The notes below the pieces were generated by a model. It saw only the letters and a list, made by a program, of their open reading frames with translations. It searched no databases and was not told the origin of the DNA. The position numbers and the translations under genes are program-made. Positions 11,086-63,734 of a stretch of 64,000 bases of DNA are shown here, one piece after another (within the stretch, counting starts at the first letter, position 1; every line of letters starts with the position of its first letter). Origin of the DNA: Chloroflexota bacterium (lineage in GTDB: Bacteria; Chloroflexota; JAJPGV01); the NCBI GenBank assembly GCA_021325635.1, contig JAJPGV010000039.1, positions 1 to 64,000 on the forward strand. The letters are read 5' to 3'.

Positions 11086-12584
11086 AGTCTTTCCAGGCCG
11101 TCTTCCAGGTCGAGGTAGCGGCGGCGAAGCTCAGCCAGCGTTTCGGGCGACGGCTGCCAGTAGCCACGCGTTGATGCCTCGAGGAGACGTGCGAGCAAGC
11201 CTCTGGCCGCGTGCGGGTTCAGCTCGCGCAGCCGATTGAGGAGCGCCTCATCGTCCACGTAAGTCCGCACGATCGCGTCGTACACCCAGCCCGGCACTGC
11301 CCGGCAGGTGGCGCTCCAGCCGAAGGTGTTGGTGACGTGACTCTCGATCTCGCGAACGCCCTCGTAGCCATGCGCCAGCATGCCTTCATACCAGCGCGGG
11401 TTCAGCGTCTTGGTGCGCGTCTCCAGCGCGACCATCTCCTCCACGCTGCGCACCTTCCCCTGAGGCATGACGAAGTCGCCGACGTAGGCCGCCGGCCGGC
11501 GGCCGCGTATCTGCTCCACGGCGCGGGTCAGCCCGCCCAAATACTCGTTGTAGTGGTCGATGTCGGTGAGCCCGAACTCCAGGCTGTCGACGTTCTGAAA
11601 GGTCGCATCCACGCCGGCCAGCATCCGCTCCAGCAGCTGGCCGTTCTGCGCGCCTTCGACTCCGCGTCCGTAGACAAAGCTCTTACGGCTCAGAAAGATG
11701 CGGGCCAGCTCCTCCTCGGCGCTCCAGGCGCTGCTTTCGACGGCAAAATTGACGTTGGTGCCATACGTGCCCGGGGCATTGCTGAAGATCCGCAGCGCAG
11801 CTTCTTCGAGAGGCACTTCCAGCTCCGCGGCGATGGCCAGTGTGTTGGCTCGAACGAAATTACGCTCCGGCGGCTCGTCGGCCAGCGCCGCCAGCCGGAA
11901 GGCGCGATCGAGAAGGTCCAGGTGGTGGGCGAACAGGTCACGGAAAATGCCCGACGCCGTGATCACCACGTCGACCCGGGGGCGGCCGAGCCGATCCAGA
12001 GGCACCAGGCGAACGTCGTGCACGCGACCCAGGTCGTCGAGCTGAGGCTCCACGCCAATCAGCGCCAGCGCTTGGCCGATCGCTTCTCCGTCCGTCTTGA
12101 GGTTATCCGTGCCCCATAGCACCAGGCCAACCGATCGCGGGTAGGCGCCCTGCTCGGCCTGCGCGCGCTCGAGCAGCTGATCCGCGGCGCGAACGGCGGC
12201 TCGCAAAGCGTAGGCCGTCGGGATCAGCGCCGGGTTGAGGCCGTGCAGGTTGCGGCCGGTAGGCACCGCCGCGGGATTGCGGATCACGTCGCCGCCTGAG
12301 GAGGGCGGTAGATAACGGCCGTCCAGGGCCCTGAGAATCGCTTCGCCTTCATCGCAGCTCGCCAGCTCCTGTCGCAGCCTGGCCAGCACGGGCGGCGGCT
12401 GGTGCTCGGCCGCCAGCGCCAGGACGTCTTCGACGCTCGACGAGGGCAGGGGCTGATCGAGGACGTGCAGACCCGTCGGGATCAGCCGGAGCTCAATCTC
12501 CCGCAAGCCCTCCAGCAATCCCAGGACGTAGCCATCGTCGCCAAGATAGGCATCCTGGGCGAAATCGTGCGTCTCGATCATCAC
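11082..12584 (-). CDS. cobN: cobaltochelatase CobN, C-terminal polypeptide
   Basis: The C-terminal part of the large cobalt chelatase subunit, 500 residues. Landmarks of the CobN/BchH C-terminal region are IPTGLHVLDQ, RNPAAVPTGRNLHGLNP, GLVLWGTDNLKTDGE, TASGIFRDLFAHHLDLLD and FGWSATCRAVPGWVYD. CobN inserts Co2+ into hydrogenobyrinic diamide with two further ATPase subunits, which are not in this window. GTG 12584 (or ATG 12581) overlaps the stop of the upstream N-terminal gene as TGATG, so translation is coupled. The two proteins sum to about 1204 residues, one normal CobN. See the finding on the split gene. Confidence 0.85.
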   Translation of the reverse strand: MMIETHDFAQDAYLGDDGYVLGLLEGLREIELRLIPTGLHVLDQPLPSSSVEDVLALAAEHQPPPVLARLRQELASCDEGEAILRALDGRYLPPSSGGDVIRNPAAVPTGRNLHGLNPALIPTAYALRAAVRAADQLLERAQAEQGAYPRSVGLVLWGTDNLKTDGEAIGQALALIGVEPQLDDLGRVHDVRLVPLDRLGRPRVDVVITASGIFRDLFAHHLDLLDRAFRLAALADEPPERNFVRANTLAIAAELEVPLEEAALRIFSNAPGTYGTNVNFAVESSAWSAEEELARIFLSRKSFVYGRGVEGAQNGQLLERMLAGVDATFQNVDSLEFGLTDIDHYNEYLGGLTRAVEQIRGRRPAAYVGDFVMPQGKVRSVEEMVALETRTKTLNPRWYEGMLAHGYEGVREIESHVTNTFGWSATCRAVPGWVYDAIVRTYVDDEALLNRLRELNPHAARGLLARLLEASTRGYWQPSPETLAELRRRYLDLEDGLERL

Positions 12585-14695
12585 GCCTGCCCAGCCGGCA
12601 CGGGAGCGTCAGAAGCCGCCACAGGGGTCAGGTCCAGGGCAGCGGCGAGCTGGCGGATCTCCGCCAGCAGCGCGCCGTCGCGGGTGCGCCGGTAGGTGTC
12701 GAGCAGGTCGCGCAGCGCCAGCAGCTCTTTGTACAGCCCGGCCTGCTGCATGGGCGGCGTCAGGTAGGACACCAGGCTGCCGTAGCCTCGTCGCTTGGCG
12801 ATCGTGCCCTCCGAGGGATTGCCCACGCTGTACAGGTAGACGTGCGGCAGCGCCCCGATGAGCCGGTCCGGCCAGCATGCCTCGGAAAGCCCGATCTGCT
12901 TGCCCGGCATGAACTCCAGCGAGCCGTGCGTGCCAAAGTGCAGCACCGCGTCGGCTTGCCACAGCTTCTGCAGGTACAGATAGTAGGCGCAGAACGCGTG
13001 GGAGGGCGTCTGTCCCTGCGCGGCCAGCAGGCGCAGCGGATCGCCTTCATAGCCGAAGGATGGCTGCACGCCAATGAACACGTTGCCGAAATGCCGGCCC
13101 AGCACGAACAGCTCCGAGCCATTGCTGTTGATCGCGCCGGGCGCACGTCCCCAGCAGTCCTCGACTTCTCTGAAATATGGCCAGCCGCGCAGGTAGTCGG
13201 CGACCGGAATGGACGCGGCGACGTTAGCCGGCGTCCCATGCTCCGAGGCATTGCTGCCGGCCAGGGCCTCGCGCAGCGCCTCCGCGCTGTCGGGCACGTC
13301 GACCGCGTAGCCGCTGCCGGCCAGCCGAGTCAGCAGCCGCTGCAGGCTGGCGAACACGTCCAGGTAGGCCGCCGTTCCGAGGTTGCCGCGGTTGGGCGGG
13401 AAGCTGAACAGCGTAATGGCGATGCGCTTCTCGGCGTTCGGCTTGAGCCGCAGCTCGACCATTCGGGCCAGGCGATCCACCAGGCGCTCGATACGCTCAG
13501 GCAGGGGCTGGAAACCGTCCGTCGCGCTGGTCACGCCGCCGAAGATGAACGGCTCGATCGCTCCATCCAGCTCGGGGATGGCGACCTGCATCATGCTCTG
13601 GAGCGGGTTCAAGCCGGTGGGGCTGGCCAGCCATTCCTCGATTCGCTGGAAGGTCAGCGACACGGCGTCGAGGTAGGGCACGTCCTGCCGTCCAAGCGCC
13701 GCCACCGCGGCCGGGGCATCGTTGGCGCCCATGCCACCAACATAGCCGAAGCCGGTCAGCGACAGGATGGTCTGCACGCGGCCAAAGAAACGCTCCTGGA
13801 TGACCCGATTGTCGAGCGCGAATGCCAGCGCCGGCACGGGGATGAGGCCGCGGCGCTCGATGGCAGCGATCACCGCATCGTAATGAGCGGTATTGTGATT
13901 CAGCACAAAGGTGCGAAAGAGGATCACGCCCACCTGTGCCGCGCCGGCCGATGGAGCGCCCGGCCGTGAATGGAACCAGGCCAGGTAGTCGTCGAGGGCG
14001 TCGAACTGACGGGGCGCATCGGGATGGTAAATCGAGGCCGTCGGATACTCCACCACCGGGCCAGGCGTCACCGCCGCGCCCGCGTAGCGCCGCAGGATGA
14101 GCAGCAGCATGTTGCGCAGGTTCTCCGGCGAGCTGTTCAGGTAGTAGCCGTAGATCTGCAGGTAGGCGCGGAAGTCTTGCCCCCGGCCCGGCGCGAACCT
14201 CAGCCAGCCGGCAACGCGGCCGGCCAAGCTGGCGAATGATTCGGCCGATCGCTCCCCCGACGGACGGCGGATCAGCTTGCCGAAGCGGGACATGAATCCA
14301 CTCTGCCGCGCCAGGTCCAGGCCGCCCAGTCTCGCCCGCCGCATGAGACTGGCCACGCAGTTGAGGGGCACGAAGGCCCGCAGCTGCGGGCCCTGTTCGT
14401 CCAGCAACTCCGCAATCCGCCGTGCCGAGGCCTCTTCGGTGACGTGGATGGCCAGCAGCGCCACCGACGACGAGACGTCGGCCGCGACACGCTGCCAGTC
14501 CTCGGTGGTGCGCACGTCTGGCAGCAGGTGAACGGCCAGCTCGAGGCCGAGATGATGGACCCGCTCAATTTCGGCGCAAGCCTGCTTGAGCGAGCCCAGG
14601 AAGCTGCGTTCGACCAGCAGCAAGGTGATCTTCAAGGGCATCCAAAGTGTACCGGCGAAGGCCTCCCTTGCCGGGCTGCGACTAGGCACGTCCAT
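12581..14695 (-). CDS. cobN: cobaltochelatase CobN, N-terminal polypeptide
   Basis: The N-terminal 704 residues of a CobN-type chelatase subunit. Seen: VGVILFRTFVLNHNTAHYDAVI, SLTGFGYVGGMGANDAP, EPFIFGGVTSATDGFQPLPERI, LFSFPPNRGNLGTAAYLDVF and VLHFGTHGSLEFMPGKQIGLS, all standard CobN blocks including the metal-site HFGTHGSLEFMPGK. It ends at APVPAGQA immediately before the C-terminal gene. ATG 14695 follows AAGG; ATG 14641 would give a start closer to other CobN proteins. Its neighbour CbiGH supports cobalt rather than magnesium chelation. Confidence 0.87.
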   Translation of the reverse strand: MDVPSRSPAREAFAGTLWMPLKITLLLVERSFLGSLKQACAEIERVHHLGLELAVHLLPDVRTTEDWQRVAADVSSSVALLAIHVTEEASARRIAELLDEQGPQLRAFVPLNCVASLMRRARLGGLDLARQSGFMSRFGKLIRRPSGERSAESFASLAGRVAGWLRFAPGRGQDFRAYLQIYGYYLNSSPENLRNMLLLILRRYAGAAVTPGPVVEYPTASIYHPDAPRQFDALDDYLAWFHSRPGAPSAGAAQVGVILFRTFVLNHNTAHYDAVIAAIERRGLIPVPALAFALDNRVIQERFFGRVQTILSLTGFGYVGGMGANDAPAAVAALGRQDVPYLDAVSLTFQRIEEWLASPTGLNPLQSMMQVAIPELDGAIEPFIFGGVTSATDGFQPLPERIERLVDRLARMVELRLKPNAEKRIAITLFSFPPNRGNLGTAAYLDVFASLQRLLTRLAGSGYAVDVPDSAEALREALAGSNASEHGTPANVAASIPVADYLRGWPYFREVEDCWGRAPGAINSNGSELFVLGRHFGNVFIGVQPSFGYEGDPLRLLAAQGQTPSHAFCAYYLYLQKLWQADAVLHFGTHGSLEFMPGKQIGLSEACWPDRLIGALPHVYLYSVGNPSEGTIAKRRGYGSLVSYLTPPMQQAGLYKELLALRDLLDTYRRTRDGALLAEIRQLAAALDLTPVAASDAPVPAGQA

Positions 14696-50071: not shown

Positions 50072-50380
50072 AAGCCACCTTCTCCTGTTGCTTCGAGCCT
50101 AGGAACGAGGAAGCCAACACCCGGCAAATGACACGAAAACGTTGCATAAACGGCGAACGCACTGGGGCTTCACGGTCGCCGCTGTCCCTCCCTGCTCGCG
50201 CCGGACGTGCCCGCACAAATCGGGCCCTGCTCGTTGGCCCGTGCATGGTCATCCCCCTCTCTGCCGGCAGCAGGACCGGCTTTAGCACCCGTTTGCACGT
50301 CCTTGACGGGAAGTTCGCGCGGCGCTGCCTACCGTACTCCTGTAGGCCTTGCCTCACATCAACCAGCAGGTGCAGACGTC
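50072..50380. other. 309-bp promoter region upstream of the CO dehydrogenase operon
   Basis: Non-coding divergent DNA between the small protein and the CooF gene. TTGACG at 50303-50308 may be a -35 box, but no convincing -10 lies 16-18 bases on. CCCG/CGGG dyads flank it. I did not find a CooA/CRP-like TGTCA-N6-TGACA site. Regulation of the operon therefore cannot be read directly. Confidence 0.4.
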
Positions 50381-51121
50381 ATGACCATGGGGCTTCGATC
50401 CGAGCGCCAAAGGCGGGCGCCACGCAGCGTGTTCGTGAACCCCGAGCACTGCATTGGCTGCCGCCAGTGCGAGTTCGCCTGCGCTGTCGAGCACTCGCGG
50501 AGCAACGACCAGTTCGCCGCCTTCCTCGAGGATCCTGTGCCTCGCACGAGGGTGCACGTCGAGGCGGGGGACGTGCCCTCGACCTCGTTCCCGAACCGCT
50601 GCCGCCATTGCGATCCGGCTCCCTGCCAGCAAGTCTGCCCGACCGGAGCCGTCAGCCGCGACGACGAGATGGGCGTTGTCCTCATCGAGGCTACGCGCTG
50701 CATCGGCTGCGCCATGTGCGCCGTCGTCTGCCCGTTCGACGTCATCAGCTTCTATCCGCTGGCCGAAGGGCCCGATCCACAGACCGCCGTCGCCGTCAAG
50801 TGCGACGGTTGTATCGACCGACAGCGCCGCCACGAGGTTCCGGCTTGCGCCGAAGCCTGCAAAGTGGAAGCGCTGGTGTACGGCGAGCTGAACGAGCTGA
50901 TCCGGTCCGGCCGGGTGCGCGAAACCCGCGCGGTGCTAGGGGCGGCGGACCTCACTCACCAGCCAGCCGCCGACCCGCTCGCCGGCTGGCACGCCTGGGG
51001 TGATGAAATCCTCACGGTCGCGGCCGCGGCGCACATGCCGGGGCACAACCACCATAACGGGCACGGCAATGGGCACGGCCCGGCCAAGAGCACTAACAAG
51101 AGCGATGGAGGTTCCCGATGA
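50381..51121 (+). CDS. cooF: CooF-like 4x[4Fe-4S] electron-transfer protein with His-rich tail
   Basis: A 246-residue ferredoxin-like partner of CO dehydrogenase that carries electrons away from CooS. Four cluster motifs are seen: CIGCRQCEFAC, CRHCDPAPCQQVCP, CIGCAMCAVVCP and CDGCIDRQRRHEVPACAEAC. This is the DmsB/CooF arrangement. The C-terminus carries an unusual His/Asn/Gly run (HMPGHNHHNGHGNGHG) suited to bind Ni or other metal, reminiscent of the separate nickel protein CooJ. AGGTG precedes ATG 50381. Its stop overlaps cooS as ATGA, so it opens the operon. Confidence 0.9.
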   Translation: MTMGLRSERQRRAPRSVFVNPEHCIGCRQCEFACAVEHSRSNDQFAAFLEDPVPRTRVHVEAGDVPSTSFPNRCRHCDPAPCQQVCPTGAVSRDDEMGVVLIEATRCIGCAMCAVVCPFDVISFYPLAEGPDPQTAVAVKCDGCIDRQRRHEVPACAEACKVEALVYGELNELIRSGRVRETRAVLGAADLTHQPAADPLAGWHAWGDEILTVAAAAHMPGHNHHNGHGNGHGPAKSTNKSDGGSR

Positions 51122-53064
51122 GCACCGTCAGCCGCGACGGCCACCACAGCGGCCGGCTCACAATCAACGAAGACGCCCGACGCATGATCGACGTCGCCCG
51201 CGAGGAAGGCATCGAGACCGTGTGGGATCGTCTTCAGGCCCAGCAGCCCCAGTGCGGCTACTGTTCCCTGGGGGTCTCATGCCGCAACTGCTCTATGGGC
51301 CCATGTCGCATCGACCCCTTCGGGGCCGGACCGCAAAAGGGCGTTTGCGGCGCCGACGCCGACGTTATCGTCGCCCGCAACCTGGGCCGAACCATCGCTG
51401 CCGGCTCGTCGTCCCATTCCGACCACGGCCGCGACATTCTGGAAGTCTTCCTGGCCACGGCCAAAGGTGAGACGACCGGCTATCGCATTGCCGATGAAGC
51501 GAAGCTGCTGCGCCTCGCCGCCGAATTCGGCATCCCCAGCGACGGTCGCTCGGTCAGCGACGTAGCCAGCGACCTCGCGGACCGCCTCTTCGAGGACTTC
51601 GGCAGCCGCAAAGAGCACCTGTCGTTCGTGGAGCGCGCGCCGGCCAAACGGCGCGAAGTGTGGGAGAAGCTCGGCATCGTCCCTCGCGGCATCGATCGTG
51701 AGAACGTCGAGATGCTGCACCGCACGCACATGGGCGTTGACAATGATTATGTCAACATCTTGCTCCATGGCCTGCGCACTGGTCTGTCGGATGGCTGGGG
51801 CGGCTCGATGATCGCTACGGAGCTGTCCGACATCATGTTCGGCACGCCAAGCCCACGCATGTCCGAAGTGAACCTGGGCGTGCTTCGGTCCGACCAGGTC
51901 AACGTGGCCATGCACGGGCACAATCCCCTCCTGTCCGACGTGATCGTCAGCGCCGCCCAGGACCCCGAGCTGCTCGAGCTGGCCCGTTCCTATGGCGCTA
52001 CCGGTATCAACGTCGTCGGCCTGTGCTGCACGGGCAATGAACTCCAGATGCGGCGTGGCGTGCCGATAGCCGGCAACCACCTGATGCAGGAGCTGGTGAT
52101 GATGACCGGCGCCCTGGAAGCCATGGTCGTGGACTACCAGTGCATCATGCCTTCGGTCACCGACGTGGCCAAGTGCTACCACACCCAGATCATCTCCACC
52201 GCCGACAAGGCCAAGTTCCCCGGGGCGACGCACGTGTCCTTCGATCCCCACCGCGGCGCAGAGATCGGGAAGCAGATCGTGCGCATGGCTGTTGAGGCCT
52301 ATCCCAATCGCAACCCGGATCGCGTGCGCATTCCAGTCAAGCCGGTGCAGATGATGGCCGGGTTCTCGGTGGAAGCCATCCTCGGAGCCCTGGGCGGAAC
52401 CCCCAAGCCCCTGGTGGATGCCATCGCCGGCGGAGCCATCCGGGGAGCGGTCGCCGTGGTTGGCTGCAGCAACCCCAAGGTTCCCCAGGACTATGGCCAC
52501 GTGGAGCTCACCCGCCAGCTCATCGAGCACGACGTGCTGGTGATCGTGACGGGCTGCGCCGCTGTGGCCAACGGGAAGGCCGGCCAGATGCTGCCGGAGT
52601 CGGCCCGCATGGCCGGGCCGGGCCTGCGTGGAGTGTGTGAGGCGCTCGGCATCCCGCCGGTGCTGCACATGGGCTCGTGTGTCGACAACAGCCGCGTGCT
52701 GGTACTGGCCGGGGCGCTGGCCAGCTACCTGGGAGTCGACATCGATCAGCTGCCCCTGGCCGGAGCCGCGCCGGAGTGGTATTCGGAGAAGGCCGTGGCC
52801 ATCGGCGCCTACGTCGTCGCCAGCGGGGTCAAGACCGTGCTGGGCGTGCAGCCGCCGATCTTCGGCAGTCCGCATGTCGTCGACCTGCTGGCCAACGGGC
52901 TCGAGGGCGTCACTGGCGCGACCTTCGCCATCGAGCCCGACCCGGCCAAGGCGTCGCTGCTGATTCGTCGACACATCGAGGCCAAGCGCAAAGCGCTCGG
53001 CCTGCCATACGAGGAAGTGGAGGAGATGGCCCCGGCGGTCGAGGCCGTGGGGACCGGAGCGTAA
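51118..53064 (+). CDS. cooS: anaerobic carbon-monoxide dehydrogenase catalytic subunit (Ni-Fe)
   Basis: Oxidises CO with water to CO2 and two electrons at a [Ni-4Fe-4S] C-cluster. The 648 residues contain all expected ligands by homology: His266, Cys303/304, Cys342, Cys450, Cys480 and Cys521, plus Lys558 and the proton-transfer HSDH near 100. B-cluster Cys are 55, 58, 63 and 77. At the D-cluster, Cys46-x2-Cys49 replaces the usual C-x7-C, the form linked to a [2Fe-2S] D-cluster. ATG 51118 overlaps cooF; cooC follows by 5 bases. It needs anaerobic or micro-oxic Ni maturation. Confidence 0.96.
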   Translation: MSTVSRDGHHSGRLTINEDARRMIDVAREEGIETVWDRLQAQQPQCGYCSLGVSCRNCSMGPCRIDPFGAGPQKGVCGADADVIVARNLGRTIAAGSSSHSDHGRDILEVFLATAKGETTGYRIADEAKLLRLAAEFGIPSDGRSVSDVASDLADRLFEDFGSRKEHLSFVERAPAKRREVWEKLGIVPRGIDRENVEMLHRTHMGVDNDYVNILLHGLRTGLSDGWGGSMIATELSDIMFGTPSPRMSEVNLGVLRSDQVNVAMHGHNPLLSDVIVSAAQDPELLELARSYGATGINVVGLCCTGNELQMRRGVPIAGNHLMQELVMMTGALEAMVVDYQCIMPSVTDVAKCYHTQIISTADKAKFPGATHVSFDPHRGAEIGKQIVRMAVEAYPNRNPDRVRIPVKPVQMMAGFSVEAILGALGGTPKPLVDAIAGGAIRGAVAVVGCSNPKVPQDYGHVELTRQLIEHDVLVIVTGCAAVANGKAGQMLPESARMAGPGLRGVCEALGIPPVLHMGSCVDNSRVLVLAGALASYLGVDIDQLPLAGAAPEWYSEKAVAIGAYVVASGVKTVLGVQPPIFGSPHVVDLLANGLEGVTGATFAIEPDPAKASLLIRRHIEAKRKALGLPYEEVEEMAPAVEAVGTGA

Positions 53065-53069
53065 GCCAG

Positions 53070-53948
53070 ATGTGCGACGTCGACGAGCGGCATCAGCACG
53101 CGGTTGATGCCGCCATAGCAGGCGGCGAAGGGCTGCGCACGGTGGTCGTGGGCAAGGGGGGAGTGGGGAAATCGACGATCACCGCGCTGCTGGCCCGCAT
53201 TCTCGCGCGGCGAGGAGCCCAGGTGCTGGCTGTCGACGCTGATGAGCAGCGTAACCTCGCAGCTACCCTGGGCCTCGCCGCCGCCGCCGCCGCAATCGTT
53301 CCCCTGGCCGAACAGGCCGACTACGTCGAAGAGAAGACGGGCGCTCGGCCGGGTGAAGGGTCGGGCGGCATACTGCGGCTCAATCCCGACGTCTCGGACG
53401 TCGTCGAGCGCCTGGGCGTTCCGGCGCCAGATGGCGTCCGCTTGCTGGTCATGGGCACGGTGCGCCGCGCCGGAAGCGGCTGCCTCTGTCCGGAGCACTC
53501 ACTGTTAGCGGCAACCGTGGGCGGCATGAGCCTGCGCCGAGGTGAAGTGGTGCTGATGGATACCCACGCCGGCGTAGAACATTTCGGCCGCGCGCTGGCC
53601 CGCGGCTTCGATCGGGCGCTCGTGGTAGTCGATCCCACCTTCAACGCCATGCACGTTGGCGTCGAAGCGGCGCGTCTCTCGATCGACCTCGGAATCCATG
53701 ACGTCCGACTGCTGGTCAACCGCGTGCGTGGGCCCGACGACCTGTGCCGCGCTCTGGACAACATCAGCCGAGCGGGTGACTTTGCCTTCCACTCGCTGCA
53801 CGCGCTGCCCTACGACGAGCTAGCCATGGCGAGTGAGCCGGCAGTCGACGAGCTGCTGCGCGGGTCGGATCTGGCCGGCGCCGTTGGCGCGCTGGCGGCC
53901 GAGCTGGTTCCGGCAGCCACCACTCCCATCCTCCAGGCGGTGCGCTGA
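53070..53948 (+). CDS. cooC: CO dehydrogenase maturation ATPase CooC
   Basis: A MinD/SIMIBI-class ATPase that aids nickel insertion into CooS. The 292 residues have the deviant P-loop GKGGVGKST (28-36), DADEQRNLAATLG and the family C-x-C metal motif in SGCLCPEHSLL (Cys138, Cys140), which joins the dimer around a metal ion. An N-terminal extension of about 20 residues precedes the P-loop. The gene starts 5 bases after cooS and its stop overlaps the next gene as TGATG, placing it within one translation unit with its substrate enzyme. Confidence 0.93.
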   Translation: MCDVDERHQHAVDAAIAGGEGLRTVVVGKGGVGKSTITALLARILARRGAQVLAVDADEQRNLAATLGLAAAAAAIVPLAEQADYVEEKTGARPGEGSGGILRLNPDVSDVVERLGVPAPDGVRLLVMGTVRRAGSGCLCPEHSLLAATVGGMSLRRGEVVLMDTHAGVEHFGRALARGFDRALVVVDPTFNAMHVGVEAARLSIDLGIHDVRLLVNRVRGPDDLCRALDNISRAGDFAFHSLHALPYDELAMASEPAVDELLRGSDLAGAVGALAAELVPAATTPILQAVR

Positions 53949-55201
53949 TGCGCGCGGTGATTATTGGCACGGGTCCGGCGGGCATCACCGCCGCCCTCAC
54001 CCTGCGGCAGCTCGATCCTTCCGGCGCGGTAACCGCGCTGTCGGCCGAGCCGTACCCGCCCTACTCGCCGCCGGCGATAGCCGACCATTTCCTGACCGGC
54101 CGCGATCAGACGCTGTACTGGCAGGGCAGGGACGTTGCTCAGCGCCTAGGCATCGAGGAGCGGCGCGAAGCTTGCGTCGCGGCGGTGGACAGCTGCAACC
54201 GCGAGGTCGTCCTGGCGGACGGCGACCGTATCCGGTACGAAAGATTGATCGTCGCTTCGGGCAGCCGGCTGCACGCGCCCTTAACAGGCGCGGAGCTGCC
54301 GGGCGTGTACGACTTCAAGTCGCTGCGAGTGGCCACCGAGATGATTGGTCGGGTGCGCTCCGGCGAGGTCAAGAGCGCGCTGATCGTGGGCAACGGCTTT
54401 ATCGGCATCGAGCTAGCCCTGCTGCTGGCCGATCTCGGCGTCGACGTGACCATCATCGGCCGCAGGTCGTGGGTCATGCCTCGCGTATTGGATCCTGAGA
54501 CCTCCGCCGTGGCCGAAGCAGCCCTGGAGGCGCGAGGCGTGACCCTCCGCCTGGGCCTGGAAGCTGAGGCATTCATAGGCGATGGCGGCGTCACCGGGGT
54601 GCGCCTAGCCGGAGGAGAAGTCGTCACCGCCGGGATGTACATCGCCGCCACCGGCGTGAAGCCGCACGTCGAGTTCCTTGGCGGCTCGGACGTGACGGCC
54701 AGGTGGGGCGTGGAGGTCGACGACCGGCTGCGCACAACCGATCCCAACATCTTCGCCGCCGGCGACGTGACCGAAGCCGCCGACCGCCTCACCGGCGAGC
54801 CATACGTGCACGCCATCTTCCCCAATGCCGTGGCCCAGGGCCGTGTCGCCGCCCTGAACGCCCTGGGGCGAGACATACGTTACGAGGGAGCTGAGGCGAT
54901 GAACAGCCTCAAGCACCTCGGAGTGCCCATCGTCGCCATGGGCAGCACCGACCACCCGGATGAGATCCTGCGCCGTCATGACGGCGCGGGGCTGCGCTCG
55001 ATTTACCTGCGCGACGGCCAGATCGTGGGCGCGCAGCTCGCCGGGGACATCAGCGCCGCGGGCATCTATCGCTCGCTCATGCTCCGCCGGGCGAAGGTGC
55101 GCCCGTTCGGCAAGCGCATCATCGAGCCCGGCTTCGGCATGAGCCAGATTGTTTGGGACGCAATGCAGCCAGGCCGGATCCATGCCTGTGCCGCAGCCTG
55201 A
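53948..55201 (+). CDS. NAD(P)/FAD-dependent oxidoreductase of the CODH operon
   Basis: A 417-residue two-dinucleotide-fold flavoprotein like NADH:rubredoxin or ferredoxin reductases. The FAD motif is AVIIGTGPAGITAAL, the NAD(P) motif SALIVGNGFIGIEL and the second FAD contact IFAAGDVTEAA. Such FNOR genes accompany cooF/cooS in several anaerobic CODH clusters, where they are proposed to pass CO electrons to NAD(P)+ or to oxygen-protective reductases. ATG 53948 shares a base with the cooC stop. The last 20 bases overlap the transhydrogenase alpha gene. Confidence 0.9.
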   Translation: MRAVIIGTGPAGITAALTLRQLDPSGAVTALSAEPYPPYSPPAIADHFLTGRDQTLYWQGRDVAQRLGIEERREACVAAVDSCNREVVLADGDRIRYERLIVASGSRLHAPLTGAELPGVYDFKSLRVATEMIGRVRSGEVKSALIVGNGFIGIELALLLADLGVDVTIIGRRSWVMPRVLDPETSAVAEAALEARGVTLRLGLEAEAFIGDGGVTGVRLAGGEVVTAGMYIAATGVKPHVEFLGGSDVTARWGVEVDDRLRTTDPNIFAAGDVTEAADRLTGEPYVHAIFPNAVAQGRVAALNALGRDIRYEGAEAMNSLKHLGVPIVAMGSTDHPDEILRRHDGAGLRSIYLRDGQIVGAQLAGDISAAGIYRSLMLRRAKVRPFGKRIIEPGFGMSQIVWDAMQPGRIHACAAA

Positions 55202-56411
55202 AGCCGACCCGGTGGGACAGCCGGGAGCAAGTCCGGTGCGAATCGCCGTCCTGAAGGAGACCCGCCCGGGCGAACGGCGAGTCGCCCTGGTGCCCGGCAC
55301 GGTCGACAAGCTGCGCCAGCTCGGAGCCGACGTCCGGATGCAGGCCGGAGCCGCCGAGGGCATCAGTCTGCCCGACGCGGCGTTCCACAACGTGGCCTTC
55401 GGCCAGGACCCGCGCAGCCTCGTAGGCGACGCGGACATCGTCCTGGCCGTTCAGCCACCGGCGGTTGAAGTGGTCAACGCTATGAAGCCAGGCGCGATCC
55501 TGATCTCCTTCGTCTACGCTGAAAGAGAGCCCGCGCTGGTCCAGGCTCTGTGCGCGCGGCGCGTCACCTGCTTCGCCATGGAGCTGGTTCCGCGCTCCAG
55601 CCGGGCGCAAGCGGTCGACGCGCTTTCCAGTCAGGCCGCCCTGGCCGGCTACTACGCGGTGCTGCTGGGAGCTACCAAGCTCACCCGCATTCTGCCGATG
55701 ATGACCACGGCTGTTGGCGCCCTGCGTCCGGCAACCGTGCTGGTCATGGGCCTCGGGGTGTGCGGGCTGCAAGCCGTCGCCACGGCTCACCGCCTGGGCG
55801 CCATCGTCGAGGGCTACGACGTTCGCCCCGAAACGCGGGGGGAGGTGCAGTCGCTTGGAGCGAGATTCGTCGACACCGGCATCGATGCCCGAGGTGAAGG
55901 CGGTTACGCCCGCGAGCTGACGAGCGACGAGCGCCAGCACGTTGCCGACGTACTGACCAGGCACATCCAGCAGGCCGACCTCGTCATCACCACGGCCGCC
56001 GTGCCTGGCCGGCCGGCCCCGCGGCTCGTCAGCCGGCCCCAGGTGGAAGGCATGAAGCCAGGCTCGGTCATCGTGGACCTGGCCGCCGAGGGTGGCGGGA
56101 ACTGCGAGTGCTCGCGTCCCGACGAGGTTGTCCGGGTAGGCCAAGTCACCGTCCTGGCTCCCTCGAACGTTCCCTCACTGCTGGGCGAGCACGCCAGTGA
56201 GCTCTATGCCAAGAACCAGGTCAACCTGCTCCAGCTGATGCTCCGCAATGGCCGCATCGACATCGACTGGTCCGATGACATCCTGGCCGGCAGCGTGCTC
56301 ACCCACGATGGGGAGATCAAGAACCGCACTGCGCGGCAGGCGCTGGAGCCGCGCCGGAGTGAGCCGGTGCAGGCACCCGACCACGTGCAGCCAGGGCTTG
56401 CTCGATCGTGA
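55182..56411 (+). CDS. pntAA: NAD(P) transhydrogenase alpha subunit, NAD(H)-binding part (PntAA)
   Basis: Domain I of the proton-translocating transhydrogenase, binding NAD(H) on the cytoplasmic side. It has about 409 residues; the conserved start is VRIAVLKETRPGERRVALVP. The nucleotide motif is VLVMGLGVCGLQAVATAHRLGA, and GYDVRPETRGEVQSLGARF is an RPETREQV-like loop. It lacks the membrane helices found in single-chain PntA; these are in the next gene, the three-gene layout. ATG 55182 is used; GTG 55236, behind GGGAG, is a fair alternative that would remove a Pro-rich leader. It overlaps the flavoprotein gene. Confidence 0.92.
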   Translation: MPVPQPEADPVGQPGASPVRIAVLKETRPGERRVALVPGTVDKLRQLGADVRMQAGAAEGISLPDAAFHNVAFGQDPRSLVGDADIVLAVQPPAVEVVNAMKPGAILISFVYAEREPALVQALCARRVTCFAMELVPRSSRAQAVDALSSQAALAGYYAVLLGATKLTRILPMMTTAVGALRPATVLVMGLGVCGLQAVATAHRLGAIVEGYDVRPETRGEVQSLGARFVDTGIDARGEGGYARELTSDERQHVADVLTRHIQQADLVITTAAVPGRPAPRLVSRPQVEGMKPGSVIVDLAAEGGGNCECSRPDEVVRVGQVTVLAPSNVPSLLGEHASELYAKNQVNLLQLMLRNGRIDIDWSDDILAGSVLTHDGEIKNRTARQALEPRRSEPVQAPDHVQPGLARS

Positions 56412-56421
56412 GGAGGCATTG

Positions 56422-56742
56422 ATGACGCTGCAATTGACAATCACTGGCTTCGTGGCCATCTACATCTTCATGCTGGCGGCCTTCACCGGGTATGAGGTCA
56501 TCAGCCGGGTTCCGGCCATCCTGCACACGCCGCTGATGTCCGGATCCAACTTCGTCCATGGCATCGTGGTCGTGGGTGCACTGTATGCCCTTCTCAATGC
56601 CACGTCCCTCACCGAACAGATCATCGGCTTCGTGGGCGTCGTTCTCGGAGCGGCCAACGCCGCCGGTGGCTACGTCGTGACCATCCGCATGCTGGAGATG
56701 TTCAAGGTCAGCCATTCCCGGACCGGCGAGAAGGTAACGTGA
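56422..56742 (+). CDS. pntAB: NAD(P) transhydrogenase alpha subunit, membrane part (PntAB)
   Basis: A 106-residue small membrane subunit with about three transmembrane helices (VAIYIFMLAAFTGYEVISRVP, GIVVVGALYALLNA, QIIGFVGVVLGAANAAGGYVV), corresponding to the first part of domain II that forms the proton channel. AGGAGG lies just upstream of ATG 56422. It is 10 bases after pntAA. The stop overlaps the GTG start of pntB as GTGA. Mild Arg/Lys at the C-terminus suggests an inside location. Confidence 0.93.
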   Translation: MTLQLTITGFVAIYIFMLAAFTGYEVISRVPAILHTPLMSGSNFVHGIVVVGALYALLNATSLTEQIIGFVGVVLGAANAAGGYVVTIRMLEMFKVSHSRTGEKVT

Positions 56743-58163
56743 ACCTCGGCTGGCTGGTCGCCCTGGTCGACGTCGTGGTCGCCTTCCTTCTCATCTTCGG
56801 CCTCAAGCAGATGGCCTCCCCGGTCACTGCGCGATCCGGCATCGGCTTAGCCGGCGCGGGCATGCTCGCCGCCGTGCTGGCCGCTCTGCTGTATGTCCTC
56901 GATGTGGCGCCGGACGCCCAGCCACACGTGACCGCGAACGCGATTCTCGCCGCGCTCGCCCTGGCTCTAGGGCTGGGCTGGGCGTGGTGGGCCGGCTCCC
57001 GGGTTCCCATGACCGCCATGCCGCAGATGGTCGCCATCTACAACGGCATGGGCGGCGGGGCCGCGGCGGCGATTGCCGCCACCGAGCTGCTCGGTGCCGG
57101 CCAGGGGGCCAGCACTCGGCTGGCCATAGCGGTTGTTGGCGGTTTGATCGGCTCCGTGTCGCTGTCCGGATCAGTCGTGGCCTGGGCCAAGCTGGACGAG
57201 CGGCTGAAGCGACCGTGCCGAATCAAGGGCCAGCAGATGCTCAATGCGCTGGTGATGCTGGCTGCGATCGTCCTTGGCTTCAGCACGATCCTCGTCATGC
57301 CGCGCAGCCCTGGCCTGGCGGCGCTGTTCTTCTTCGCAGCGCTGCTCTTTGGGGTGCTCATGACGCTGCCCATCGGCGGGGCCGATATGCCCGTGGTGAT
57401 TTCGCTGTACAACGCCTGCACCGGTGTGGCGGTGGGGCTCGATGGCTACGTCCTCCAGAACCCTGCGCTGATGGTTGCCGGCACGATTGTGGGCTCAGCC
57501 GGCACGCTGCTCACCGTGCTCATGGCACGAGCCATGAACCGCTCCGTTCGCAACGTCCTGTTCGCGAACTTCGGCGCGACCGGCAGCGCAGCACAAGCCG
57601 GTGCCGTGGGCGCTCTCAAACCGGCCGAGGCCAGCGACGCGGCCATTTTCATGCGCTATGCCCGCAAAGTCATCGTCGCGCCCGGCTACGGGCTAGCCGT
57701 CGCGCAGGCTCAGCACAAGCTCTACGAGCTGGTCAAGCTGTTGCAAGCCGCCGGCGTGGAAGTCAAGTTCGCCGTGCACCCGGTGGCGGGACGCATGCCC
57801 GGACACATGGACGTGCTCCTCGCCGAGGCGGGCGTACCCTACGACCTCATTTTCGAGCTCGATGACATCAACGACGAGTTCGACGATGCCGACGTCGCTC
57901 TCGTGATCGGCGCCAACGACGTCGTCAATCCGGCGGCCCGCGTGGACCGATCGTCACCGATTTACGGCATGCCGATCTTGAACGTGGACCATGCGCACCA
58001 GGTCTACGTGATCAAACGCGGGCAGGGGAGAGGCTACTCGGGCATCGAGAATGCCCTGTTCTACGCGCCCAATTGCGCCATGGTCTACGGCGACGCCCAG
58101 GCCGTCCTGGTCAAGATGATTCAAGCCATCAAAGATCTCACCGCGGAGCCGCAGGCGGCGTGA
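56739..58163 (+). CDS. pntB: NAD(P) transhydrogenase beta subunit (PntB)
   Basis: The 474-residue subunit with the rest of the membrane domain (about eight helices) and the cytoplasmic NADP(H) domain. The latter has VIVAPGYGLAVAQAQHKLYEL and FAVHPVAGRMPGHMDVLLAEA, then DDADVALVIGANDVVNPAA and the RGQGRGYSGIEN loop that closes over NADP. Complete with PntAA/PntAB, it can make NADPH from NADH using the proton gradient. GTG 56739 overlaps pntAB. It ends the CO operon; 66 bases then separate it from a hypothetical gene. Confidence 0.95.
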   Translation: MNLGWLVALVDVVVAFLLIFGLKQMASPVTARSGIGLAGAGMLAAVLAALLYVLDVAPDAQPHVTANAILAALALALGLGWAWWAGSRVPMTAMPQMVAIYNGMGGGAAAAIAATELLGAGQGASTRLAIAVVGGLIGSVSLSGSVVAWAKLDERLKRPCRIKGQQMLNALVMLAAIVLGFSTILVMPRSPGLAALFFFAALLFGVLMTLPIGGADMPVVISLYNACTGVAVGLDGYVLQNPALMVAGTIVGSAGTLLTVLMARAMNRSVRNVLFANFGATGSAAQAGAVGALKPAEASDAAIFMRYARKVIVAPGYGLAVAQAQHKLYELVKLLQAAGVEVKFAVHPVAGRMPGHMDVLLAEAGVPYDLIFELDDINDEFDDADVALVIGANDVVNPAARVDRSSPIYGMPILNVDHAHQVYVIKRGQGRGYSGIENALFYAPNCAMVYGDAQAVLVKMIQAIKDLTAEPQAA

Positions 58164-59106: not shown

Positions 59107-60213
59107 TCAGCGGCCCATGAAGCTCGGAGGCGTAGGCCGTAGGCGATCGGGCGTCTGCGGCGGGCTGAGTTCATAGACGCGCAGGGTCTTGTCGTCCGCA
59201 CCCATCGCCAGATACCGGCCATCCGGTGACCAGGCTGTCCCGTTCGTGTCATAGCCCACGTCGTCGCGAGCGATAAGGGCTCCCCCGGCGTCGAGGATCT
59301 TCAGGTCGAAGGACACCGAGGTGAGCGCCAGCAGCTTGCCATTGGGCGACCATGAGACCGTGCCCGATTGGCGCCCCTTGGGAAGCTCGCGAATGAGCTT
59401 GGCGGTGGCGGGATTCACCAGCAGCAGCGCTCCGTCGTCGTAGGCGATGGCCAGCGTTTGCCCATCAGGGGACAGGCTCATGCTGTTCACCGCCTTGTGC
59501 GCGACATCCGGCTGGAATATGCGCACCGGCTTGGCCTGCCCTGCAGCGAAAAAGGCGACCCGGCCCGTCTCGTCACTGGCGGCGACCTCCCCGCCGGGCA
59601 GCCACAGCAGCGCCCGCGTCCTAACGTCCCCAACCTGGAAGCTGTCGACGAGGGTGCCGTCCTTGGCCTCGAACAGCTGCACCGTGTTTCGGCCTTGTGC
59701 GAGGGCGAAGCGTTGACCGTCGGGCGACCACGCCACGGATGGGTACGTCGTCGGATACGCGGTAACGCTGTATGCCACCTGGAGCGATTCGGGATCGGAG
59801 ACACGCACGCTGCCGTCGCCCGCGGCCGTCAGCAGCCGCTTGCCGTCGGGGGACCAAGCCAGGCCCGTGGTCTGGCCCACGTGCAGCTTCCGGATCACCG
59901 CGTCCTCACCCGGCTGGAGCTGAAGCTTGAGCACGGCCACCGTGCCGTCCTCGGCGCCGATGGCCAGCCTGAGTCCGTCCGGTGAAAAGGCGACGGTCTC
60001 CACGTGATCCTCACCCACCGGCTGGCGGAGGATCTCCTTGAGCGATACGCCCGAAGCGCTTGGCAGGGCGGACCCGGCTGACGGCGCCTGACTGGCTGGA
60101 GAGGCCGGTGCGATCTGCCCTGGACTGGCCGAGCAGGCTGCCACGGTAAAGGCCGCGAGCACGCCCACGGTCCAACGAACCCGCTTGAGCAAGCTAGCGC
60201 CGCGGAGGCTCAT
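59107..60213 (-). CDS. WD40-like beta-propeller lipoprotein
   Basis: A 368-residue exported protein. The signal VRWTVGVLAAFTVAACSAS ends in the lipobox VAAC, so it is lipid-anchored outside the membrane. The rest is about seven blades with the recurrent phrase W/LSPDGxxLA (AFSPDGLRLAIG, AWSPDGKRLLTAA, AWSPDGQRFALA, SLSPDGQTLAIAY, SWSPNGKLLALTS, AWSPDGRYLAMG). Such propellers scaffold protein or ligand binding. It stands opposite to the small alpha/beta gene and divergent from the DUF2249 operon. Confidence 0.88.
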   Translation of the reverse strand: MSLRGASLLKRVRWTVGVLAAFTVAACSASPGQIAPASPASQAPSAGSALPSASGVSLKEILRQPVGEDHVETVAFSPDGLRLAIGAEDGTVAVLKLQLQPGEDAVIRKLHVGQTTGLAWSPDGKRLLTAAGDGSVRVSDPESLQVAYSVTAYPTTYPSVAWSPDGQRFALAQGRNTVQLFEAKDGTLVDSFQVGDVRTRALLWLPGGEVAASDETGRVAFFAAGQAKPVRIFQPDVAHKAVNSMSLSPDGQTLAIAYDDGALLLVNPATAKLIRELPKGRQSGTVSWSPNGKLLALTSVSFDLKILDAGGALIARDDVGYDTNGTAWSPDGRYLAMGADDKTLRVYELSPPQTPDRLRPTPPSFMGR

Positions 60214-60408: not shown

Positions 60409-60660
60409 ATGGAGCAACCACACAACACCGTCGTGCTGGACGTACGTGACGACCTACGAGAGGGCCGCGAGCCGTTCCAGCGGATCATGATGACCGCCAA
60501 CAGCCTCGCGCCCGACCAGGCGATGGAGCTGTGGGCCCTGTTCGAGCCTAAGCCGCTGTTTGCCGTCATGACGGGGATGGGCTTTGAATACGAGGCAGAA
60601 GCGCAGCCCAACGGCGATTGGCGCGTGCGTTTCTTCCGGTCGGGTCACGTGCAGGCGTAG
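60409..60660 (+). CDS. DUF2249 domain protein
   Basis: An 83-residue protein that matches the DUF2249 pattern: VVLDVRDDLREGREPFQRIM, then LAPDQAMELWALFEPKPLFAVMTGMGFEYE and the closing GDWRVRFFR. DUF2249 proteins are TusA-fold-like and frequently sit beside denitrification and low-oxygen genes. GGAGGG stands six bases before ATG 60409. Seven bases separate it from the next gene, opening an operon through to 63734. Confidence 0.83.
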   Translation: MEQPHNTVVLDVRDDLREGREPFQRIMMTANSLAPDQAMELWALFEPKPLFAVMTGMGFEYEAEAQPNGDWRVRFFRSGHVQA

Positions 60661-60667
60661 GATCCCG

Positions 60668-62008
60668 ATGAGCCAGCCTGTCACGACGCCCACCATGCCG
60701 GATCCGGCCCAGCCACTGCCGAGCATGCCCGCGGGACCGCTGCTGTCCGGGCTCAGCACCTCCCGCGCTGCGTCGCTCAGCCTGCCGCTGCGCTACATGG
60801 TGGCGGGCCTGGCGTTCGCCGTGCTGGCATTCGGCTTCGCGCTGGCCTACTCGCCGTCATTCCTAGGCACGGTGTTTCTCACGCCCCGCCTTCTGGCCGT
60901 TACCCACCTCACGGCCCTGGGCTGGCTGACCATGGTCGCGATGGGCGCCTTGTACCAGTTCATTCCCGTCGTGCTCGACGTACCGATTTTCAGCGAGCGC
61001 CTCGGCAAGGTGCAGTTCTACCTGTACCTGGCAGGAGTGCTGGGATTGACGGTGGAGATGGGCACGGGCCGGACGCAGGTCATGGCCTGGCCGGCGGGCT
61101 TGTTGGTGCTGGCCGTTGGCGTGTTCCTCTACAACGCCGCTCGCACGCTGGCGCGTGTGGAGCGCTGGCCGCTCACAGGCTGGTACATCCTTGCGGCTCT
61201 GACGTCGCTGGCCCTGGTAGTGACGGTCGGGTTCGCCCTGGCCCTGAACCTCACCCTGGGGTTCCTGCCGTTGAGCCAGCTGGCGTTCGTCGAAGCCCAT
61301 GCGCACCTGGCAGCGCTGGGATGGCTAGGCCTGCTGGTCATGGGCGTTTCCTACAAGCTGACGCCGATGTTCGCGCTGTCCCACCCCTTCAATGAGTGGC
61401 GCCTTGGAAGGCCCATCTTCATCCTGCTGACCGCCGCGGTCGTTGGGCTGTTCGTCAGCTTACTGCTGCGGCTCGGACAAGCGCCGCTGCTGGGATGCTG
61501 GTCGGTGGCCGCGATCGGGATTGGCTTGTACGCCTGGGACTACGCCACGATGCTGCGGGTACGCCGCCGGCGGCCCATTGACCTAACGCAGCAGCACAAC
61601 ATCGCCGGCCTGGGCGGACTGCTGCTCACGACCCTGCTCGGCCTAGCCTTGATCCTGGTGCCGGCCGAGACCGACCTACATCCGCGGCTGCAGCTGGCCT
61701 ACGCGGCCGCAAGCCTGGGCGGGTGGATCGGGCTCACCACGCTGGGGCAGCTGTACAAGATTGTGCCCTTCCTGGTCTGGACTCACCGCTTTGCCCCGAG
61801 GATGGGCAAGGCGCCGGTTCCCCTCCTCAAGGACCTCTATCCTCAGGTGCTGGCACGGGCCGGCTTCGGCGCTCTGCTGGCCAGCCTGACCATAGCTCTT
61901 GCCGGCATCCTCGCCGGCTACCTTCCAGCTATCCAGGCCGGTTTTGGCCTGTGCACGCTGGGCGCCGCCCTTACGGCGGTCAATCTCATTCGGGTGGTGT
62001 TGCGATGA
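60668..62008 (+). CDS. polytopic haem-copper oxidase subunit I-like / NnrS-like membrane protein
   Basis: A 446-residue protein with about twelve hydrophobic helices. Two His-rich helices, VTHLTALGWLTMVAMGALYQF and VEAHAHLAALGWLGLLVMGVSYKLTPMF, resemble the haem-ligating segments of NnrS and of cbb3/nitric-oxide-reductase catalytic subunits. A third conserved part is LTQQHNIAGLGGLLLTTLL. Not all ligands of a working binuclear centre are visible, so it is more likely NnrS-like or a haem-binding relative. It is co-transcribed with DUF2249 and MIP18-type genes. Confidence 0.65.
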   Translation: MSQPVTTPTMPDPAQPLPSMPAGPLLSGLSTSRAASLSLPLRYMVAGLAFAVLAFGFALAYSPSFLGTVFLTPRLLAVTHLTALGWLTMVAMGALYQFIPVVLDVPIFSERLGKVQFYLYLAGVLGLTVEMGTGRTQVMAWPAGLLVLAVGVFLYNAARTLARVERWPLTGWYILAALTSLALVVTVGFALALNLTLGFLPLSQLAFVEAHAHLAALGWLGLLVMGVSYKLTPMFALSHPFNEWRLGRPIFILLTAAVVGLFVSLLLRLGQAPLLGCWSVAAIGIGLYAWDYATMLRVRRRRPIDLTQQHNIAGLGGLLLTTLLGLALILVPAETDLHPRLQLAYAAASLGGWIGLTTLGQLYKIVPFLVWTHRFAPRMGKAPVPLLKDLYPQVLARAGFGALLASLTIALAGILAGYLPAIQAGFGLCTLGAALTAVNLIRVVLR

Positions 62009-62307
62009 TCGACCAAGATGCCTTGATGGCAGCGCTCAAGAACGTCTATGACCCTGAGCTGGGAGTGAACGTCGTCGACCTCGGGCTGATTTATGACGTC
62101 GAGCAGCATGGCGGCAAGATCACGGTAGCCATGACCATGACCACCCCCGGCTGCCCGCTGCACGAGAGCATGCTGCGCGGCGTCGGCGATGCGCTGAACG
62201 GCGTTCCCGGCGTCGAGCGCGTGGAAGTGCGGTTGGTGTGGGATCCGGTGTGGACCCCGGAGCGCATCACGCTGGCAGGTCGCAAGGCGCTCGGCTGGGC
62301 GGCCTGA
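62005..62307 (+). CDS. MIP18/DUF59 iron-sulfur cluster assembly family protein
   Basis: A 100-residue SufT/MIP18-fold protein. The hallmark VYDPELGVNVVDLGLIYDVE comes first, then TMTTPGCPLHESM with its conserved Cys and VEVRLVWDPVWTPERIT. It contributes to maturation of Fe-S proteins or the Paa-type machinery. The gene starts inside the stop of the upstream membrane protein (ATGA) and its stop shares a base with the following gene (TGATG). All three are thus translationally coupled. Confidence 0.92.
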   Translation: MIDQDALMAALKNVYDPELGVNVVDLGLIYDVEQHGGKITVAMTMTTPGCPLHESMLRGVGDALNGVPGVERVEVRLVWDPVWTPERITLAGRKALGWAA

Positions 62308-63734
62308 TGCCGGCGGGCATGGTGCCGCGACGGCGCCATGAGCCGTATCAGTACTTCCTGAAGGCCAGCCTGCTCCTGGCGATGACCATCGGCTGGCTGC
62401 TGGGCGCCATCGAGCTGAGCGCCATCGCGTTCCATGACGCCTCGCCTTCGCTGGCTGCCCGGCTGATCTCGCCAGCCCTGTTCCAGGTCCATGGCCAGAG
62501 CCAGATCCTTGGCTGGGTGGGCCTGTTCATCATGGGCATTTCCTACCAGGTCGTTCCGCGCCAGCGGCGAGTAGCCATCCACGCCTCGACGATGGCATAC
62601 GTAGTCCTCGCGCTGATGGTCGCAGGGATCGTGCTGAGGGCCATCTCCCAGCCCCTGGCTGCAGCCTCCGTGCTGTTTCGCGGCCTTACCGTCCTCTCGG
62701 CGCTGCTCGAGCTGGCCGGCCTTGGCCTGTTCATGGGGGGCTTGATCAAGGGTCGCGTCATGGCAGACAGCATCCAGGGGCCGGAGCGCTTCAGCCGGGC
62801 AGCGCTGCAGTGGTTTGCCGTGGCACTGCTAATCAACCTGGGCACGACCGTTTACCTGGCGCTGCAAGCGGGCTCGGTCGTGCCCGACTGGCTGGACAGG
62901 CCCCTGATCGTGGTTGAGCTATTCGGCTTCGTCACGTCCATGATCTTCGGTGTCAACGCCCGGAATTTGCCGCTGTTCATGCGTGTGAGACCCGCGTCCT
63001 CCGACGATCTGCTGGCCGTGCTGAGGCTGCTGCCGCCGAGTGTCGCGCTGTGCGCCGCAGGACAGGCCGTGTCGGCGATTTCACTGGGTGGCGGCCGAAT
63101 GATGGCGGCCGCGGGCTGGGCTGGGCTGCTGGTCATCGCCGGGCTGTACGTCCGGGCCGTCGGCCTCCTTGGACCCCGAACGCGCCAGATCGTGACCGCC
63201 GGCGAATCAGGCTGGTACGAAGCCTACGTGGTGGGCGCGTACGCCTGGCTCGGGCTTGGGCTCCTCCTGGAGCTGCTCACCTCGCTGGCGCAGCTCGGGC
63301 GGCTGGGACTGCCGGCGGAAGACCTGTTCCTCGCGGGTCTGCACGCCGTCACCATCGGCTTCATCTCCATGATGATCATGGGCATGGCCGCACGGATCGT
63401 CCCGGCGTTTGCCGCTACCCGGCTGCACAGTCGATCGCTGTTCGTCTTGACCTGGTGGTGCCTCATGCTGGGCACGCTGCTGCGCGTGCCAGCGCAGGCG
63501 CTGTACAGCTCGACGGGTGGCGCGATCGGCCCGCTGCTTGGCTTATCGGGCATCGTCCAGCTGGCTGGCATGATGCTGTTTACCTGGAACCTGTGGCGGA
63601 CGCTGGCTGGCAGCGTCACGGATCGGGCCGCACTGCTAGCCCCCCGAAGCAATGCGCTCCAACCGCCCCACGTCCAGCAGCGCGGTCGTGCCTCGACCGA
63701 TGCGGACGACACCCTGCCGCTCCATCTCTCGTAA
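62307..63734 (+). CDS. NnrS-like membrane protein
   Basis: A 475-residue protein with about twelve helices. HGQSQILGWVGLFIMGISYQVVPR and GLHAVTIGFISMMIMGMAARIVPAF carry the histidines that are typical of the NnrS family, haem-copper proteins linked to nitric oxide tolerance and denitrification. The C-terminal 40 residues are hydrophilic (APRSNALQPPHVQQRG). They overlap by 99 bases with the end of the converging Crp/Fnr gene, so the exact C-terminus deserves care. It follows the MIP18 gene as TGATG. Confidence 0.75.
   Translation: MPAGMVPRRRHEPYQYFLKASLLLAMTIGWLLGAIELSAIAFHDASPSLAARLISPALFQVHGQSQILGWVGLFIMGISYQVVPRQRRVAIHASTMAYVVLALMVAGIVLRAISQPLAAASVLFRGLTVLSALLELAGLGLFMGGLIKGRVMADSIQGPERFSRAALQWFAVALLINLGTTVYLALQAGSVVPDWLDRPLIVVELFGFVTSMIFGVNARNLPLFMRVRPASSDDLLAVLRLLPPSVALCAAGQAVSAISLGGGRMMAAAGWAGLLVIAGLYVRAVGLLGPRTRQIVTAGESGWYEAYVVGAYAWLGLGLLLELLTSLAQLGRLGLPAEDLFLAGLHAVTIGFISMMIMGMAARIVPAFAATRLHSRSLFVLTWWCLMLGTLLRVPAQALYSSTGGAIGPLLGLSGIVQLAGMMLFTWNLWRTLAGSVTDRAALLAPRSNALQPPHVQQRGRASTDADDTLPLHLS

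Follow-up and report, generated by a model that had tools for sequence, protein, structure and literature searches.

A C-x2-C (type III) Ni-CODH gene beside CooF, CooC, FNOR and transhydrogenase genes in a Chloroflexota genome, and a recurrent two-state change in the D-cluster motif

The window analysed here, a stretch of 64,000 nucleotides from a Chloroflexota contig, carries on its forward strand a run of genes that begins with one for a CooF-like protein and ends with those for a transhydrogenase. The genes, and the metal-ligand sites within cooS, are as follows.

50381–51121 (+): CooF-like protein carrying multiple 4Fe-4S motifs (Pfam Fer4_11 and further 4Fe-4S models matched; DmsB/HydN-like NCBIfam models scored under their cut-offs)
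51118–53064 (+): cooS, catalytic subunit of an anaerobic Ni-CODH, clade E, type III D-cluster (TIGR01702, PDB match, tree)
51253–51264 (+): D-cluster ligands Cys46-Gly-Tyr-Cys49 (C-x2-C), by alignment to CODH-II and D. vulgaris CODH
51277–51279 (+): Ser54 (TCA), aligned to where C-x7-C enzymes have their second D-cluster Cys
51280–51348 (+): B-cluster ligands Cys55, Cys58, Cys63 and Cys77, invariant in 94 of 94 aligned sequences
53070–53948 (+): cooC, P-loop maturation ATPase (GKGGVGKS; CLC motif; Pfam CbiA, 9e-15; orthologues adjoin cooS in relatives)
53948–55201 (+): FNOR, FAD/NAD(P) oxidoreductase (Pfam Pyr_redox_2, 4e-50; PadH-like, 194 bits, below cut-off; conserved beside cooS)
55182–56411 (+): pntAA, transhydrogenase alpha-1 subunit (NF006942, 349.5 bits over profile positions 2–368 of 510; the cut-off of 383 is set for the unsplit protein)
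56425–56742 (+): pntAB, membrane subunit alpha-2 of the transhydrogenase, its start only approximate (match to the C-terminal portion of NF006942)
56739–58163 (+): pntB, transhydrogenase beta subunit (PF02233, 536 bits)

The CooF gene lies upstream of cooS and overlaps it by 4 nt (ATGA); an ATG at 50381 or 50387 was judged a likelier start than the listed GTG at 50207. The C-terminus of CooF (51022–51121) is a His-rich tail, HNHHNGHGNGHG. We discarded this tail as a nickel-binding feature of the unit: it is largely absent in relatives, with only a short His run in locus L013.

The cooS reading frame is intact and complete (648 aa), and no second CooS was found in the genome. CooS scored 711 bits against TIGR01702, passing the curated cut-off of 478 over the full length of the profile (positions 3–621 of 621). 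Its best PDB match, and so its closest solved structure by sequence, was D. vulgaris CODH (6b6v, E = 1.5e-241). Residue equivalences were read from an alignment to C. hydrogenoformans CODH-II, whose numbering was used, with D. vulgaris and Thermococcus CODH also aligned. All ligands of the C-cluster (CODH-II His261 and Cys295/333/446/476/526; here His268 and Cys304/342/450/480/521) and of the B-cluster (CODH-II Cys48/51/56/70; here Cys55/58/63/77) are kept, as are the acid–base residues His93 and Lys563 of CODH-II (here His100 and Lys558). This bore out the first-pass annotation, which had reported both sets of ligands as complete.

The D-cluster site lies in the peptide QCGYCSLGVSCRNC, encoded from 51250 (+). 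Here CODH-II Cys39 corresponds to Cys46 (codon 51253–51255), Gly42 to Cys49 (51262–51264) and Cys47 to Ser54, which directly precedes Cys55 (51280–51282). The C-x2-C pair and the Ser at the usual second D-cluster position had been proposed at first reading, and the alignment places them exactly there; no alternative Cys falls at the second position. CODH-II itself has Gly at position 42 in its PDB sequence and thus does not represent a mixed Cys/Cys state. We aligned 94 CooS sequences (80 loci of named genomes, together with sequences from same-phylum genomes, three PDB references and the window). Residues 49/54 were Cys/Ser in 60 (window included), Cys/Thr in 5 and Gly/Cys in 29, with no other state. 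With so many sequences sharing Cys49 and Ser54 or Thr54, the window motif can be put down neither to a chance substitution nor to faulty sequencing.

The C-x2-C form is neither rare nor new. In D. vulgaris CODH the Cys-x2-Cys motif binds a D-cluster that is [2Fe-2S] by crystallography, and the motif is present in several uncharacterised CODHs as well (Wittenborn et al. 2018, PMC6168284). Cys-x-x-Cys-(x)5-Cys was catalogued in 2019 as the type III D-cluster, the D. vulgaris group being E-2 (Inoue et al. 2019, PMC6344411), and Cys-x-Phe/Tyr-Cys has been published as the signature of 2Fe-2S CODHs (2024 study, PMC10979024). A 2026 survey uses the same classes, although one of its passages gives the statements on [2Fe-2S] and O2 to "type II" where type III seems to be meant (PMC13240472). 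The window sequence has the type III spacing (Cys46-x2-Cys49-x5-Cys55) and, with Cys-Gly-Tyr-Cys, the published signature; it is not of type II (C-x7-C, [4Fe-4S]), having Ser54 rather than Cys directly before the first B-cluster Cys. In our own tree, the window CooS fell in a starred group that includes D. vulgaris 6b6v and excludes the clade-F CODH-II.

From the sequence, the D-cluster is thus most likely [2Fe-2S]: with Ser54, the Cys that [4Fe-4S] sites draw on is missing, and the homodimer would carry one [2Fe-2S] cluster between its subunits, held by Cys46 and Cys49 of each. We consider it probable that the enzyme is a clade-E, structural group E-2 Ni-CODH of the D. vulgaris type with an FNOR-linked electron path. 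Both enzymes share clade E, the C-x2-C motif with a residue other than Cys at x7, a complete C-cluster, the acid–base residues and a CooC encoded nearby. They differ in that the window has Ser at x7 and Tyr between the two Cys, whereas D. vulgaris has Thr and Phe, and they belong to separate clades of the tree. The window neighbourhood holds CooF, FNOR and transhydrogenase genes, that of D. vulgaris a regulator and CooC only (PMC13056359).

Since the CooS itself is of a known type, the point of interest is its neighbourhood in an oxygen-respiring bacterium with an aerobic CO enzyme. The genome encodes a form I Mo-CODH large subunit (G000:C49:87764–90034, locus L133; 1268 bits, cut-off 991; motif AYRCSFR) and therefore both types of CO dehydrogenase; several CoxL-like paralogues below the cut-off lie elsewhere in it. 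Among the genomes of the clade, CoxL exceeded the cut-off in 4 of 30. Acetyl-CoA synthase (CdhC, PF03598) gave no match in the window's genome, although methanogen controls were matched; the genomes of L002–L019, L021, L026 and L027 likewise yielded none, and matches did occur in the genomes of L020, L022–L025 and L028–L031. No genes for an energy-converting hydrogenase were recognised in the coo region of the window. Parageobacillus sp. G301, also facultative, likewise encodes both a Ni-CODH and a Mo-CODH, but it belongs to a different phylum and pairs its Ni-CODH with an energy-converting hydrogenase (PMC13077300) where the partner in the window is FNOR.

The genome is a 63-contig assembly with an estimated contamination of 3.95%. 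In an RpoB tree it fell near Chloroflexota sequences, though not on a supported fork; several of the 60 relatives sampled, all from its own phylum, grouped there with named Chloroflexota, which makes Chloroflexota the likely phylum. Mis-binning of the contig was rejected: the tetranucleotide profiles of three window segments correlated at 0.72–0.78 with the other contigs of the genome, which correlated among themselves at 0.71–0.81, and at −0.02 to 0.67 with other genomes. The 8-kb coo stretch alone gave a lower value (0.64), which may reflect its small size or an acquired origin. Elsewhere in the window (11082–14695, −), a CobN/Mg-chelatase H-type protein with DUF3479 is encoded by two ORFs that overlap by 4 nt and cover profile positions 2–539 and 677–1090, as in a split gene or a frameshift.

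A 2020 paper in ACS Catalysis reportedly ties the D-cluster to oxygen resistance. The C-x2-C form could be an adaptation to oxygen that this host has retained on account of its aerobic respiration, a reading to which we give a real but minor chance. It is consistent with two strong haem-copper oxidase matches in the window's genome (E = 1.9e-164 and 9.7e-161) and with the full reactivation reported for D. vulgaris CODH after exposure to O2 (PMC13056359). PF00115, which also covers NO reductases, matched in 33 of the 64 genomes carrying type III as opposed to 1 of the 17 carrying type II, in draft assemblies that may be missing genes. A few clades, however, make up most of this count: among pairs chosen to be phylogenetically independent, about 3.6 of 4 had no oxidase difference, a comparison in which four pairs put significance out of reach and leave little power. 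Moreover, type III is universal in those clade members that lack an oxidase match (L020, L022–L026) and occurs in methanogens (L060, L067, L069 and others). Position 559 of CODH-II, at which an engineered Trp lowers O2 sensitivity (PMC12338426), was dropped as an informative residue: Trp stands there in 93 of the 94 aligned CooS, of both D-cluster types, so that O2 behaviour has other determinants. Of the original interpretation, then, the [2Fe-2S] part is supported by the alignment to D. vulgaris CODH and by the published signature; its oxygen part goes back to one characterised enzyme, and an oxygen tolerance of the C-x2-C form is not established beyond D. vulgaris. Two membrane proteins with weak COX1-like matches are encoded next to each other at 60584–62008 and 62238–63734 (+), the second also matching NnrS (8.8e-11), and a further weak COX1-like match lies on contig C24 of the genome.

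With CooF and FNOR genes adjacent to cooS, window positions 50381–55201 form a Ni-CODH/FNOR unit. The order CooF-CooS-CooC-FNOR was found in 19 of the nearest loci (L002–L016, L018, L019, L021 and L027), from Actinomycetota, Chloroflexota and Gammaproteobacteria; in L017 (Acidobacteriota) cooC lies upstream instead. In remoter members of the clade (Chloroflexota, Bacillota) the unit is CooF-CooS-FNOR, and their loci yielded no CooC. The spread of CooF-CooS-(CooC)-FNOR within the window's clade over five phyla points to horizontal transfer. Lineages with terminal oxidases harbour this compact unit, in the present genome alongside a form I Mo-CODH, and a Ni-CODH gene alone should therefore not be read as the sign of a strict anaerobe.

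In the proposed electron path, CO would be oxidised at the Ni-Fe-S C-cluster of CooS, the nickel site of which CooC would mature, and electrons would pass from CooS to CooF, FNOR and finally NAD(P)+. At the end of the second strand of its dinucleotide fold, FNOR has Gly-Arg-Arg in the window and the closest relatives; elsewhere Glu, Lys or Val stands there. Comparison with NADP-binding enzymes suggests use of NADP(H). CO-dependent NADP+ reduction is seen in extracts of Geobacter sulfurreducens, where CooS, CooC, CooF and FNOR are likewise encoded in one cluster (PMC4703632). The G. sulfurreducens cluster (GSU2098–2095) shares CooS, CooC, CooF, FNOR and the predicted acceptor NAD(P)+ with the window. 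It has the order CooS-CooC-CooF-FNOR and an RcoM regulator, whereas in the window CooF comes first and no adjoining regulator was recognised; its CODH is of group E-1 with a type II D-cluster (PMC6344411), that of the window of E-2 with type III.

The likely ATG of pntAA, at 55182, falls within FNOR, so that the two genes overlap by 20 nt, and pntB is the sole PNTB found in the genome (one PF02233 match). Together these make co-expression of coo and pnt likely, as far as gene arrangement can tell. The NAD(P)H so produced would probably be a substrate of the transhydrogenase, encoded in the same run of overlapping genes, which would convert one form into the other in step with proton flow. In its strongest form, the proposal is that a seven-gene operon, CooF-CooS-CooC-FNOR-PntAA-PntAB-PntB, couples CO oxidation to a proton gradient, NADPH being formed at FNOR and Pnt exporting protons as it runs from NADPH to NADH. 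We regard this as improbable; were it true, a facultative aerobe with a Mo-CODH would conserve energy from CO with neither hydrogenase nor acetyl-CoA synthase. The window stood alone in having pnt genes beside the unit; none were found in the 17 related loci whose sequence continues more than 5 kb past FNOR, and the coo-pnt link may thus be a local accident. Our literature search found no published work on a Ni-CODH/FNOR-pnt pairing. A WD40 beta-propeller protein is encoded beside the pnt genes (59107–60213, −).

The unit could also serve stress defence rather than energy conservation, electrons from CO being used via CooF and FNOR to detoxify reactive oxygen. Such a role has been proposed for Carboxydothermus CODH-IV, encoded as CooF-CooS(IV)-FNOR-rubrerythrin (as cited in PMC4703632), and the terminal oxidases of the host favour it. 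Still, we think this function unlikely here, for the coo neighbours include no gene recognised as encoding rubrerythrin or another peroxide-reducing protein, and transhydrogenase genes are found in that place.

We also followed residues 49 and 54 with a DNA motif pattern that could catch Cys/Cys and Gly/Ser as well. It was applied to two sets, one of 400 genomes from the window's phylum and one of 395 from the phylum to which a Desulfobulbaceae relative belongs. The first set gave 33 matches (28 Gly/Cys, 4 Cys/Ser and 1 Trp/Cys). For the second, 78 among the matches listed, a hand-picked subset with mostly one per set of near-identical sequences, comprised 44 Gly/Cys, 32 Cys/Ser, 1 Cys/Thr and 1 Cys/Arg. 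Cys49 and Cys54 were thus mutually exclusive, never both and never neither, in 94 of 94 aligned CooS and in 111 further motif matches (78 of them picked from the matches listed), the two motif samples overlapping slightly with the 94.

Serine can ligate iron in some iron-sulfur proteins, and the D-cluster might on that ground still be of the [4Fe-4S] kind, bound by Ser54 or some other group, or else the site might be empty, the motif then saying little about cluster type. This is very unlikely, as D. vulgaris CODH, with Thr at the Ser54 position, has a crystallographic [2Fe-2S] cluster (PMC6168284), and Ser is not conserved at position 54 (Thr and once Arg occur), Cys49 being present whenever Cys54 is absent.

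We mapped D-cluster type onto a tree built without the loop. It needed 5 changes, of which 4 are forced by well-supported branches, giving at least four switches; 25 changes were expected with shuffled labels. This strong clustering indicates that the type is inherited but reversible. In the 31 sequences of the window's clade, on the starred branch, all are type III, with no switch, while L064 and L076, sisters with support in the tree, are of type II and type III respectively, so that the form differs even between close relatives. The motif acts like a strict switch between two states: each turn takes two substitutions, and at least four turns have occurred. Mutual exclusion is compatible with two successive steps that pass through a state of low fitness, or with gene conversion of the loop by a paralogue. 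Exchange of the whole N-terminal region was rejected as an explanation of the motif changes, on the example of L064: its N-terminal region and the remainder of the protein are both nearest to type III, with a type II loop, which argues against a wholesale swap there; gene conversion of the loop alone may account for this case.

The natural switch is a change already made in the laboratory: among the D. vulgaris variant sequences in the PDB, 6vwy carries the Gly/Cys pair (in 6ons both Cys are Ala). It provides natural sister pairs in which the role of cluster type in oxygen recovery or partner choice can be tested beyond one enzyme. Separately, we noted single Desulfobacterota genomes with both C-x2-C and C-x7-C CooS motifs (G500, G091, G699, G669, G811, G712, G730 and others).
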